This document shows positions 17,364 through 20,802 of a DNA stretch of 31,358 nt, piece by piece. This DNA is from a virus. Both the position numbers and the translations under genes were made by a program. The stretch is from positions 1-31,358 of IMG/VR virus record IMGVR_UViG_3300031918_000110, one strand, 5' to 3'. Position 1 is the first letter of the stretch. Each line of letters opens with the position of its first letter. The notes under the pieces were generated by a model. The model was not told the origin of the DNA. It was given only the letters and a program-made list of their open reading frames with translations, and ran no database searches.

Positions 17364-17396
17364 TTACTGTGGTATCGGGTTAAACGTTTGTTAGGC
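17364..17396 (-). other. Half attC site at the end of the array (cassette A)
   Basis: Minus strand GCCTAAC followed by AAACG, then ACCCGATACCAC and AGTAACG as in the other D-type sites. The matching GGTGG arm and the GTTRRRY core are missing, and the terminator stem begins instead. It may be a deletion end. Confidence 0.65.
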
Positions 17397-17595
17397 TATG
17401 CCGAATCTTACAGTTTGATATCGAACATTCAATTTTGATATTTAGTCCAAGTTCTTTTTGTCTTTCATTGGCTAAATCAACTGCATGACTAAACTTATAA
17501 AACGAATCGATCCAATTATCAAAATCAGAGCGTTGGCAAATACTCCATAATGGTTTTCCTATCTCATCGTTGTGGTGTATTACTATTTCGTCCAT
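17380..17595 (-). CDS. Cassette A protein, unknown
   Basis: A 71-residue protein with GAGGAAATT before ATG 17595. It contains GKPLWSICQRSDFDNWIDSFYKF then SHAVDLANERQKELGLNI and a Cys pair near the end (IECSISNCKI). It reads through the R'' box of its own attC and stops 10 bases beyond it, a usual feature of cassette genes. I recognise no family. Confidence 0.65.
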   Translation of the reverse strand: MDEIVIHHNDEIGKPLWSICQRSDFDNWIDSFYKFSHAVDLANERQKELGLNIKIECSISNCKIRHSLTNV

Positions 17596-17610
17596 AATTT
17601 CCTCGCATTA

Positions 17611-17672
17611 GCCTAACGCTGAGGTCTACTGCACCGCTGAGTTTGTGGTATCAGTAGAACCGTATGTTAGGT
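17611..17672 (-). other. attC site of cassette B
   Basis: Minus strand: ACCTAAC, an arm GGTTCTACTG facing CAGTAGACC with one unpaired T, and the core GTTAGGC. 62 bp. Its 3' half is identical to that of the attC at 20272-20327. Confidence 0.9.
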
Positions 17673-17958
17673 CACAGAGATTAAAGTGGTTCATTCCAAA
17701 AACAAATCCATGCCGTTTTAGCTCGTCTACAATGACAGAAACAGGAACATACGCGTATACTGTGTTCTCAAAGTCTTCTGATTCTGCATACTTTTTAAGT
17801 TCTTCTGAAATGTCGAAAGAACTAGGGAAACCGCACTTAACATGAGTGTACGATTCTGCATAGTTCTCGTCAGGTTTGCAATATGCACCTTCTCTAGCCT
17901 GTACTGAAATGCTAAAACCATCTGGACACACTATTCTTGGTCTTGTTTTGGGCCTCAT
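17626..17958 (-). CDS. Cassette B protein, unknown
   Basis: A 110-residue protein with GGAG seven bases before ATG 17958. It begins with a basic segment (MRPKTRPRIVCPDGFSISV), has an acidic middle with a helix (SEELKKYAESEDFENTVYAY), then VPVSVIVDELKRHGFVFGMNHF. The last 15 residues are encoded by its attC site and the stop TAG lies in the hairpin arm. I know no family; the core resembles short host-type proteins often found in integrons. Confidence 0.65.
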   Translation of the reverse strand: MRPKTRPRIVCPDGFSISVQAREGAYCKPDENYAESYTHVKCGFPSSFDISEELKKYAESEDFENTVYAYVPVSVIVDELKRHGFVFGMNHFNLCDLTYGSTDTTNSAVQ

Positions 17959-17988
17959 TTCAATCTCCGTTTAAGTTTCAATTCTTTG

Positions 17989-18063
17989 ACTTAACTCCAA
18001 AATAACCCTCCGATTTTGCACGACTTTACACACAAAATCGGTAGGGTTCATTGAAGGTTAGGT
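17989..18063 (-). other. attC site of cassette C
   Basis: Minus strand: ACCTAAC, then AACCCTACCGATTTTG facing CAAAATCGGAGGGTT, a 15-bp stem with a single extra A, and the core GTTAAGT. 75 bp. It is the clearest hairpin with an extrahelical base in the window. Confidence 0.92.
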
Positions 18064-18775
18064 ATGTATTGATTCGTTTGTTTGTAATGTCGAAATAGTC
18101 TTTGTCTTTTTCGATACCGATAAATTCCCGACCTGTCTTTATACAGGCGACTGCGGTACTACCTGACCCCATACAATTATCAAGAACAACAGCCCCCGCA
18201 TTTGTGTATGTTTGTATCATATATGCACACAACGATACTGGTTTTTGTGTAGGGTGTAGTGCTTCTTTCTGCTTATCTGTTGGGAATGTTAATACGCTTC
18301 TTGGGTATCGCTCTGTGCTCCCTCCGCCTTTTATTCCTGCCTTGGTTTTCCCATAATTGCTCCCATCGTCTTGATGCTTAGTGTACGAATTAACTGGCGT
18401 ATGTCCTTGTGTTTTCTGTGGATTATAAACAGGTAAATCTCGGTAAAATACAAGTAGGTTTTCATGGGATTTCATTGGCATTTTCTTTGCGTTTAGATGC
18501 CCTGTTGCTGTTGTTTTCTCCCACACCCATTCATATCTAAGGTTACCTATGTTTGACATCCCGAGAACTTTATCAAATGGGGTTTGTGCAAAAAGTACAA
18601 TTGCCCCATTTGGTTTTACTATGCGAGAATAGTGTACCCATAGTTTTGTAAGGTCTAGTGGGGAGTCCCATTTATTTTGCGTTGTACCGTATGGAAGATC
18701 ACAAAGCACCATATCTACGGATGTGCTTTCTATTTCGTCCATTTTTTCCAAACAGTCACCGTGAATTAAGTTCAT
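18026..18775 (-). CDS. DNA methyltransferase, beta-class N6-adenine or N4-cytosine (cassette C)
   Basis: A 249-residue enzyme. DLPY at residues 26-29 is the catalytic motif IV (D/N/S-PP-Y type, here with Leu), HPTQKP at about 174 is the usual motif before the SAM site, and LDNCMGSGSTAVA at about 198 is the SAM-binding motif I. The order IV then I defines the beta class. A target-recognition stretch lies between, with the run NLLVFYRDLPVYNPQ. No partner nuclease is present, so it is an orphan methyltransferase, probably masking restriction sites in phage DNA. The start uses the shared leader GATCGAGGAGA. The last 13 residues are encoded by the attC, and the stop falls in its loop. Confidence 0.9.
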   Translation of the reverse strand: MNLIHGDCLEKMDEIESTSVDMVLCDLPYGTTQNKWDSPLDLTKLWVHYSRIVKPNGAIVLFAQTPFDKVLGMSNIGNLRYEWVWEKTTATGHLNAKKMPMKSHENLLVFYRDLPVYNPQKTQGHTPVNSYTKHQDDGSNYGKTKAGIKGGGSTERYPRSVLTFPTDKQKEALHPTQKPVSLCAYMIQTYTNAGAVVLDNCMGSGSTAVACIKTGREFIGIEKDKDYFDITNKRINTYLTFNEPYRFCV

Positions 18776-18783
18776 CTGTATTA

Positions 18784-18817
18784 TCTCCTCGATCCAACCG
18801 AAGGTTGTGTACCTAAC
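18784..18817 (-). repeat. Shared cassette leader, copy 2
   Basis: 34 bp identical to the copy at 19859-19892 and 33 of 34 to that at 2897-2930. It supplies the ribosome site for the methyltransferase of cassette C. Confidence 0.88.
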
Positions 18818-18895
18818 GCTAAAATAACCAGTGCCACCGCCTAGAGCCTAGCTGTTTGCGTTACTAGGTGGTGTCGGGTTCATTGTCTGTTAGGT
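18811..18895 (-). other. attC site of cassette D
   Basis: Minus strand: ACCTAAC, arm CACCACCTAG facing CTAGGCGGTG with one mismatch, outer AACC/GGTT pairing, and core GTTAGGT. 85 bp. It is the near twin of the attC at 2174-2262, although the two cassettes carry unrelated genes. Confidence 0.88.
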
Positions 18896-19892: not shown

Positions 19893-19968
19893 TCTGAGAT
19901 AATCCGCAAGCCAGTTGGCAACCCATGTAGGCGTTACTTTGGCTTGTCGGATTCATCGTTTGTTAGGC
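19886..19968 (-). other. attC site of cassette E
   Basis: Minus strand: GCCTAAC, arm AATCCGACAAGCCA facing TGGCTTGCGGATT with a single extra A, then GTTAGGT. 83 bp. The stop codon of the cassette E gene lies in the R'' box. Confidence 0.93.
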
Positions 19969-20250
19969 TGTTGTCTTTATTCCAGTTATATCGCCATTTT
20001 TATTTGTCAATGTACAAGGATACTGCTTAATGTACGATTCAATTCTTGCCGCAAGATCCCACAAATCCGAACAAAGCCTATCAGAAGTAATCGCTGAGTC
20101 CCGTGGAAATGTTACCAAAATCTCCCCAAACTTCAGACATAGAGATGGAACCTGTATAGATGATGCCTCGTTATTCTTTTTATGTGGTGCTGGCGTTGCC
20201 TTTAGGTATGCGTATTCTTTTGGTTGTGGTAAGGGAGCATTTGTACTCAT
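19963..20250 (-). CDS. Cassette E protein, unknown
   Basis: A 95-residue protein with GAGG before ATG 20250. A Pro/Lys-rich N-terminus (NAPLPQPKEYAYLKATPAPH) is followed by QVPSLCLKFGEILVTFPRD and a helix RLCSDLWDLAARIESYI. The TAA stop is part of the R'' box, as in many cassettes. I recognise no family. The opposite strand has an ORF of similar length, rejected for lack of a ribosome site. Confidence 0.65.
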   Translation of the reverse strand: MSTNAPLPQPKEYAYLKATPAPHKKNNEASSIQVPSLCLKFGEILVTFPRDSAITSDRLCSDLWDLAARIESYIKQYPCTLTNKNGDITGIKTTA

Positions 20251-20271
20251 TCTATAGTCCTCGTTTAATCA

Positions 20272-20327
20272 GCCTAACGCTGAGGTCTACTGCGCCGCTT
20301 AGGTGTCAGTAGCACCGTTTGTTAGGT
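20272..20327 (-). other. attC site of cassette F
   Basis: Minus strand: ACCTAAC, arm GGTGCTACTG facing CAGTAGACC with one unpaired G, then GTTAGGC. 56 bp, the shortest site here. The stop of the zinc-ribbon gene lies in its R'' box. Confidence 0.92.
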
Positions 20328-20489
20328 GGCTTTTTGTTTGTTTTTCGATCCTTTTGGTCGTCCACCTTTTTTTCCATTCTCCGCGCTTTTCGGATTTGGT
20401 GGCTTTGGTCGTGATCCGCGCCATGAGCAAAAAAGAGCGATTATTTCGCTCTCGGTTAGTGGTTGTTTGCAGTGGGGACAATTAAACAT
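20322..20489 (-). CDS. Small zinc-ribbon/AT-hook-like protein (cassette F)
   Basis: A 55-residue protein: CPHC near the N-terminus, LTESEIIALF helix, a Pro-rich linker, then SAENGKKGGRPKGSKNK, which includes the GRPKGS form of an AT-hook. Only one Cys pair is present plus Cys21, so zinc binding is uncertain. ATG 20489 is chosen because AGGAGA stands four bases before it, inside the previous gene; two earlier in-frame ATGs lack a ribosome site. DNA binding is likely from the AT-hook and high Lys content. The first 20 residues are shared with the truncated ORF at 3067-3162, but the rest is not. Confidence 0.7.
   Translation of the reverse strand: MFNCPHCKQPLTESEIIALFCSWRGSRPKPPNPKSAENGKKGGRPKGSKNKQKAT
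20429..20451 (-). terminator. Terminator-like hairpin inside coding sequence (copy 2)
   Basis: Minus strand GAGCGA, AATAA, TCGCTC followed directly by six T. It lies within the zinc-ribbon ORF, about 240 bases after the promoter, and would limit transcription into the cassettes beyond. Confidence 0.5.
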
Positions 20490-20640
20490 CAATCTCCTCA
20501 TATTCACTATCGTCTAAATCGTATTCTGATTCAATAAACCCGCATGATTTCAAGCACTCTACATATTCTGCAACAGATTCAAAAACTGGCGCATTTGGTT
20601 CTGTTGTCATTCCGTATTCTGTATTTAGATTGCGAATCAT
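20482..20640 (-). CDS. Conserved 52-residue acidic leader protein, copy 2 (cassette F)
   Basis: Paralogue of the gene at 3155-3313, identical at most positions (MIRNLNTEYGMTTEPNAPVF, SVAEYVECLKSCGFIES, acidic tail ending YEEIDV). The start at 20640 has AGAAGG eight bases upstream. It overlaps the next gene by eight bases. Unlike copy 1, this copy lies downstream of the candidate attI-like junction, together with its promoter. Function unknown. Confidence 0.72.
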   Translation of the reverse strand: MIRNLNTEYGMTTEPNAPVFESVAEYVECLKSCGFIESEYDLDDSEYEEIDV

Positions 20641-20686
20641 TTTTTTTCCTTCTGGACTTAGCGGTATTGCTTGCGTCCATACAGAT

Positions 20687-20715
20687 AATATAACCAATCT
20701 AGATTAGGTTGTCAA
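20687..20715 (-). promoter_or_regulatory. Sigma70-type promoter of the cassette array
   Basis: TTGACA, 17 bases, TATATT on the minus strand, close to consensus. The initial transcript resembles that of the promoter at 3361-3389. If cassette F really is a cassette, it brings its own promoter and serves all the cassettes behind it. Confidence 0.88.
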
Positions 20716-20764
20716 GGGGTTTTGATAAAAAAGTGAAAAAAGTTTGCGGCAGGTGTTTTTGTCC

Positions 20765-20802
20765 ACCTAACTATTCGTTTACGCGCATTGGCGTGTGATA
20801 TT
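20765..20802 (-). other. Candidate attI-like insertion site, array 2
   Basis: Minus strand AATATCACACGC, 19 bases, then GTTAGGT, the first core of the array and exact complement of the R'' of cassette F. There is no hairpin partner upstream. About 30 bases further upstream (near 20820-20845) GATATCACGCAC and AAACGAAT recur, giving direct repeats as seen in attI sites. Role inferred. Confidence 0.5.

Follow-up and report, generated by a model that had tools for sequence, protein, structure and literature searches.

The window analysed here is the whole 31,358-nucleotide stretch of virus DNA held as IMG/VR record IMGVR_UViG_3300031918_000110, and it contains a long array of integron-type gene cassettes. 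The array runs along the minus strand from position 20771 down to 17360. It holds six cassettes behind a head half-site, and of their six attC sites five are complete and the last is truncated. All these sites share the orientation of the cassette genes, and the plus strand is their bottom strand. On one side of the array are leftward genes, and on the other the rightward late genes come to an end, the last of them (16978-17307) without a family match. A seventh cassette stands alone near the coat gene, at 2174-2930 (locus B), with the sixth complete site of the window. Five of the seven cassettes have a gene that terminates within its own site.

The head half-site (20765-20771, minus strand like every other feature of the array) has the R' sequence G|TTAGGT and opens cassette 1; there GTTAGGTGG is the reverse complement of the end of its own attC1 over 9 nt. 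The complete sites are attC1 (20272-20327), attC2 (19886-19968), attC3 (18811-18895), attC4 (17989-18063) and attC5 (17611-17672), scoring 57.6, 87, 92.4, 67.7 and 58.9 bits with a model, R1, for which all of them were training sites. The RYYYAAC and GTTRRRY cores are present in all five. attC6 (17360-17396) retains only R'' and the L'' arm (the 5' arm), and its 3' arm is replaced by a hairpin lying beyond the last late gene. Half-sites truncated in a similar way, again keeping R'' and the L'' arm, stand at the ends of arrays or cassettes in three related phages, that of the window and two that we call G005 (1024-1050 in its locus L021) and G031 (18769-18793). Cassette 1 also contains a promoter-like site, TTGACA-17-TATATT (20687-20715, 11/12), that is a candidate promoter of the array; it was the best of 10 found in a search whose number of matches was not above that of shuffles (mean 10.2).

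A strict scan (RYYYAAC...GTTRRRY, paired cores and folding energy of -25 or below) recovered precisely the five array sites and nothing else in the window. None of 400 Markov-1 shuffles reached five matches (maximum 3, 120 matches overall), and in 52 further viral loci (679 kb) there were 5 matches in total. With the energy limit relaxed to -14, one additional match appeared in the window, and 40 shuffles gave a mean of 1.2 and a maximum of 5. A hairpin with any complementary core, irrespective of the R/Y consensus, was not distinctive: there were 8 matches in the window, four of them array sites, and 100 shuffles gave a mean of 4.3 and a maximum of 11. Hairpins by themselves therefore do not make the case for attC, which depends on the cores, covariation, extrahelical bases and cassette ends.

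The model R1 was built from seven training sites, the six complete ones of the window and one from another related phage, G001. A second model, R2, was built from 12 (six from the window, one each from G001 and G005 and four from G033, an apparently unrelated phage). The seven-site consensus has R'/R'' and L'/L'' helices and two bulged bases. Among sites outside its training set, R1 scored 56.6 bits in G005 and 38-70 bits in the four of G033. It also matched Tetrasphaera phage TJE1 at 1016-1075 with 27.5 bits, in one of the genomes from which PMC9892861 took attC sites for its test with IntI1. Over 55 loci (722 kb) R1 gave three matches, the two in G005 again and a weak one in locus L072 (21.4 bits) that is likely false; it was rejected as a plain hairpin without the RYYYAAC core, absent from the R2 matches. 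R2, run over 70 sources (1.12 Mb), gave 15 matches, 12 of which were its training sites; the others were TJE1 (28.8 bits) and, weakly, Pseudoalteromonas phage PH101 (H101; 17.8 bits) and the G005 half-site (16.7 bits). The Rfam search of the window gave no attC match.

On the bottom strand the unpaired bases of the six complete sites of the window are T and C in five and T and A in one (attC5), and in the 12-site set T-N6-C is found in 11/12 and T-N6-A in 1/12. Sites of the T-N6-C type are reported to be efficiently excised by IntI1, IntI3, IntI2*179E and SonIntIA, and in 2011 a C in the second position was known from a single cassette (PMC3053210). The stems of the 12 sites covary: 94.2% of the cells are paired, two-sided changes occur in 16 of 24 pairs, and the covariation of 0.533, against 0.191 in shuffles, was equalled by 0/500 of these and collapses when the alignment is slid by one column. 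The sites have the covarying hairpin with two L boxes, two extrahelical bases on the same side six apart and cassette starts complementary to the end of their own attC; consensus cores are found in the five array sites, and the attC of locus B has a non-consensus R'.

An integron cassette begins with bases that pair with the start of its own attC, since the two formed one site in the circle. Among all 5,040 ways of pairing the seven cassette starts of the window with the seven attC, the true one was the best; six permutations, the true one included, tie, which is the number to be expected when three of the cassettes have the same ends. When four of the five cassettes of G033 were added (the fifth has no attC end; the cassettes of G001, G005 and G031 were left out), the four bases beyond the core gave a match score of 23 against a mean of 9.3, and 0/200,000 permutations did as well. 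Over positions 5-12 only two of 200,000 equalled the true pairing. At the level of sequence this shows that the units were mobile cassettes; where they were assembled is a separate matter.

Locus B begins with a head half-site (2924-2930, minus strand), GTTAGGTACACAAC, whose leader is as in cassettes 3 and 4. Its single cassette, cassette A, carries a gene for a DNA methyltransferase-like protein of 204 aa (2271-2885, minus strand; phrog_757, E 2.2e-28; PF00145 16.9 bits, below the cut-off), and its attC (2174-2262, minus strand) scores 66.3 bits with R1 over 2178-2262, also as a training site. The cassette starts with ...CATAG|TTAGGT and its attC ends with ...GCGAG|TTACATT. This R' (GTTACAT) is off consensus and is not complementary to its own R'', leaving non-consensus sequence where the R' of a next cassette would stand. 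This R' may derive from the phage itself, remaining after the cassette went into a G|TTACAT target that was not an attC, and a mutated R' would give the same appearance. No empty site was found in the loci compared. Insertion of this kind at attG targets is described in PMC12901181, citing Loot et al. 2024, and locus B resembles one cassette inserted at a non-attC target, a likeness of junction anatomy. Directly after this cassette lies a DUF6948 gene (1761-2129, minus strand; PF22253, E 1.2e-21). A possible threonine leader at 1719-1780, a single sub-threshold Rfam match, was taken as chance.

Tyrosine recombinases (PF00589) gave no match in any of seven records, the window included, and the control was positive in 14/14 genomes. 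The integron integrase family TIGR02249 had no match in the window, and no control genome exceeded its cut-off either. What is present is a group of five complete attC in 2.7 kb without a PF00589 or TIGR02249 match, that is, an integrase-less attC cluster (CALIN), and not a complete integron, there being no intI match; attI was given no separate search. An exact attC 5'-arm pattern, which fits 4/12 full sites and the truncated attC6 and was the only pattern used on bacterial genomes, found 1 stretch in the viral_contigs collection.

The phage genome looks complete, since the two ends of the record (linear by its IMG/VR class) are an exact repeat of 127 bp and the gene broken off at its end resumes at its start. 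The unique sequence is 31,231 bases, of which 17364-20771 makes up 10.9%; the G+C of the array is 0.403 against 0.43. A P22-type coat protein is present (P22_CoatProtein PF11651, 38.3 bits, cut-off 24), together with head closure Hc3 (phrog_578), portal (phrog_156), TerL and a scaffold-like protein, and the early region is marked by a RecT-like gene and a DnaD-like helicase loader. With both the P22-type coat and the portal, the phage is P22-like. Nothing in 50,697 phage records matches positions 5500-12600 at the nucleotide level, and TerL was matched in 1,014 records, all below 60% identity (29% for the best among the matches listed). Exact-peptide scans of viral_contigs returned no relatives of RecT or portal. 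Such scans are insensitive, because G001, with a portal 33% identical, is in that collection and was missed. Much of this had been read by an earlier note made from the letters alone, which claimed five complete attC and a half site in one orientation, consensus cores with hairpin arms and unpaired stem bases, genes stopping inside their own site, about 11% of the genome in cassettes, and P22-like neighbours with no integrase. All these points hold, the strict scan returning the same five sites, to which the seventh cassette with its complete site and the terminal repeat are now added.

Sites of the same type were found in related phages with different genes. G001 (35.7 kb) matches the window at 25-44% identity in coat, head, tail, TerL and portal, and its helicase loader is 73% identical over 150 residues. 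It has a single attC (1158-1246) where plus-strand genes meet convergent minus-strand genes, one of which codes for an M15-peptidase-like product just below the Pfam cut-off; judging from strand layout, this attC and the array of the window are at a corresponding place. The two longest stretches in which G005 (20.5 kb) aligns with G001 measure 15.1 kb, at 97.7% identity, and 2.6 kb, at 98.9%; elsewhere the identity is lower. Where G001 has ~90 bases, G005 has ~0.8 kb holding an attC (570-654), a gene for 114 aa and a truncated attC; this segment adjoins repeats, and its exact breakpoints are uncertain. The G005 attC is preceded by a gene of the Tad8 family (L021 335-640; PF25189, E 1.4e-18, residues 11-72), an inhibitor family of type II Thoeris, whose last 22 residues are read from the attC. 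The more distant relative G031 (32.1 kb, with a 120-base terminal repeat) has no full attC; upstream of its helicase loader are a cassette-like start at 18983 and the half-site mentioned above. The 19.6 kb contig G006 had no match to the attC models.

A second attC DNA pattern, run over all viral_contigs, found five stretches, in G001, G005, G031, G033 and L087. Three of these records have full R1 sites and one has a half-site; L087, which has neither an R1 nor an R2 match, was rejected as chance. G033 (34.0 kb) encodes SbcC-like, exonuclease and RuvC-like proteins, and 0/41 window proteins match it at E 1e-3. With its own gene set and no match to the window proteins, it appears to be part of a different and larger phage. 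It has four attC in a row of the same type as those of the window, and one of them is 96.6% identical to attC1 over 59 bp. Beside its cassette array, at 13425-13805 and 15331-16008, are a frame that is TnpB-like by eye and a MerR/serine-recombinase-like protein, which we take to be IS607-like.

The first gene of cassette 1 is a frame of 71 aa (20482-20697) that is a paralogue of another frame (3155-3370, minus strand) outside any recognised cassette. Since the promoter-like site overlaps its first codons, its start may be the inner ATG at 20640. A 265-bp duplication (3102-3366 and 20429-20692, 85% DNA identity) covers most of this frame and part of the sequence after it, and one of its copies is in cassette 1. 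The same cassette codes for a zinc-ribbon-like protein of 61 aa (20322-20507; PF13248 E 0.01, below the cut-off) with its stop within attC1. Cassette 2 has a gene for 95 aa (19963-20250) and cassette 6 one for 71 aa (17380-17595), without family match, stopping within attC2 and the truncated attC6 respectively. The gene of cassette 5 (110 aa, 17626-17958), with its stop within attC5, has a weak match to phrog_24554 (E 0.0008), and its predicted structure (mean predicted local distance difference test, pLDDT, of 49) was not used. Altogether four cassette genes had no informative match. DNA methyltransferases are present in two of the seven cassettes, the one of cassette A being below the Pfam cut-off. 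The other, in cassette 4, is an N6/N4 enzyme of 249 aa (18026-18775; PF01555 E 4.7e-27, phrog_67 E 2.3e-78) whose gene stops within attC4. Matches to the array region or its flanks were found in 143 phage records, and to the array in 15 plasmid records (60-80% DNA identity), the matches listed in both being in the methyltransferase gene of cassette 4.

Cassette 3 carries a radical SAM enzyme of 286 aa (18992-19852; PF04055 39.2 bits) followed by a small peptide of 28 residues, ..AGHCGSGGGHCS (18904-18990), that resembles a precursor of ribosomally synthesised and post-translationally modified peptides (RiPPs). Relatives of the enzyme are found in three viral contigs at 67-71% identity and in Lak megaphages at 36%, and none in plasmids or, by exact peptides, in genome contigs. 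It reached no NCBIfam cut-off, and the nearest solved chains are mostly viperins both by sequence and by fold (model with mean pLDDT 66). The order of enzyme gene and similar peptide is shared by four viral loci: the window (18904-19852, minus strand), L002 (6001-6971), L003 (6004-6952) and L004 (1-869), with a peptide of the form MY...GHC-(Gly/Ser-rich)-GHC[S/Y/D]. This looks like a phage-encoded RiPP-like pair. In Lak-B5 an open reading frame (ORF) of 92 residues with a Gly/Cys-rich end lies ~0.25 kb downstream of the 36% identical enzyme. L002 (from contig G002) has, at 5550-7420, attC-remnant-like pieces around its radical SAM gene and an adjoining terminase-like gene, by eye; it gave no R1, R2 or structural-scan match. 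The cassette cargo as a whole looks phage-like and is probably counter-defence, a reading suggested by the methyltransferases of the window and the Tad8 gene of G005.

With attC structure, circular-unit ends, no detectable integrase and an attC lineage that is found with other genes in other phages, the array is probably best understood as a CALIN in a P22-like phage whose cassettes are moved by an IntI supplied in trans. The integrase would come from the host, or from another element, and act during infection, recombining the folded bottom-strand attC of single-stranded phage DNA. Cassettes would be inserted beside other attC or, as at locus B, at attG-like targets that are not attC, and their cargo, phage-type and probably counter-defence, would be read from a promoter in cassette 1. 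Several points weigh against this. Neither an IntI, nor a host, nor attI was identified, and the action in trans is what we infer. The exact 5'-arm pattern, which covers 4/12 full sites, found 0 stretches in 84,980 bacterial and archaeal genomes, which gives no help to a host source. With its truncated tail the array should not readily release cassette 6, and the whole set of cassettes could have been put together in a host integron and taken up in one piece. G001 and G005 differ in other places as well. In addition, the models are narrow, R1 and R2 finding one site in TJE1 and only a marginal one in PH101 (18.9 and 17.8 bits), against three in TJE1 and more in PH101 counted in PMC9892861, and the alignment used for covariation (A3) was fitted to the model structure, with 7/12 of its rows having trained the model.

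Among other explanations, it is unlikely that the array is an inert relic that entered the phage as part of a host chromosomal integron, by illegitimate or homologous recombination, and has since ceased to recombine there. Off-target recombination of both types has been proposed for phage cassettes (PMC9892861), and the truncated tail, the half-sites that end cassettes in G005 and G031 and the failure to find an integrase would suit it, the matching of own ends being silent on where the cassettes were assembled. However, the window has seven cassettes at two loci, the junctions of locus B are as expected of a single-cassette insertion (with the reservation made above about a mutated R'), the near-identical G001 and G005 differ in cassette content, and cassette 1 carries a paralogue of a gene found elsewhere in the same phage. 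A chimeric assembly of phage and host DNA is highly improbable: the contig is metagenomic and the length of its end repeat (127 bp) could be that of an assembly word, but the gene interrupted at the record end continues at its start, the same site type is found in phage contigs with three other sample numbers, and the array has a G+C of 0.403 against 0.43. That the sites are ordinary terminator hairpins or dispersed repeats is improbable in the extreme; hairpins with complementary ends are by themselves common in the window and stretches inside attC1 and attC4 score terminator-like, but the core consensus, covariation, constant extrahelical bases and own-end matching all contradict it.

Another possibility, although a doubtful one, is that the cassettes form a pool exchanged mostly between phages, in which the attC sites are a lineage of their own, phage genes have been turned into cassettes and the integrase is provided by a host or another phage. 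It would agree with the distribution of the attC patterns (the 5'-arm pattern 0 stretches in genome_contigs and 1 in viral_contigs, the second pattern 5 in viral_contigs), with the radical SAM relatives being confined to viral contigs and Lak phages in the scans made, and with the nearly identical attC in two phages without a detected shared protein. On the other hand, the pattern applied to bacterial genomes demands exact identity and covers a minority of the full sites, the host may fall outside the sampled species, the cassettes of one shared host integron could reach both phages, and the cassette 4 methyltransferase has plasmid relatives. Tentatively, one could go as far as supposing that phages own such a pool, one attC lineage passing among unrelated phages, early and counter-defence genes being made into cassettes and single cassettes dropping at attG-like targets by way of an integrase encountered in the host. 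The presence of one attC lineage, with different genes, at several places in related phages and in an apparently unrelated one makes the sampling and passing of integron cassettes by phages directly testable and adds evidence that cassettes are shared between them. If the cargo is truly counter-defence, integron recombination would be a means of swapping anti-immunity genes between phages.

Sedentary chromosomal integrons have attC sites that resemble one another and cassettes that mostly contain one gene. The array of the window is alike in both respects, its attC being mutually similar and its cassettes mostly of one gene; unlike them, it lies in a phage genome, with no intI found and no attI identified. 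Closer counterparts are found in Qi et al. 2023 (PMC9892861), who screened 10,705 phage genomes and found 17 CALINs; the phages that carry them include virulent, temperate and uncharacterised ones. Six attC sites, taken from three of the virulent phages, were tested with IntI1 and five of them recombined, and the conclusion that this is a route of gene exchange was already drawn there. The earlier note had suggested that such a route would be new, which is not supported. The different cassettes that it proposed to look for in related phages do exist, both in relatives and in the apparently unrelated phage, with the same attC type. Our literature search, outside which most of the subscription literature lies, found no other paper on phage integrons by title or start of abstract, none with Tad8 and Thoeris as whole words and, for integrons with anti-defense, a plasmid review.

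TJE1, PH101 and Polaribacter phage P12002L have integrase-less attC clusters as here, the cassettes of TJE1 and PH101 are in one orientation as in the window, and methyltransferase cargo was noted in phage cassettes there too (PMC9892861). The window has six cassettes in a row and one elsewhere, compared with 4 ORFs and 3 attC in TJE1; its array is a further phage CALIN, longer than that one. Compared with the virulent-phage CALINs of that study, the radical SAM/peptide cassette and the recurrence of the attC lineage in other phages are particular to the present case. Phage cassette arrays were known before from single genomes of diverse phages, and what appears to be new, judged from the sequences compared, is that a single attC lineage, with different genes, is present both in diverged relatives and in a phage that is apparently unrelated, the cargo being of phage type.

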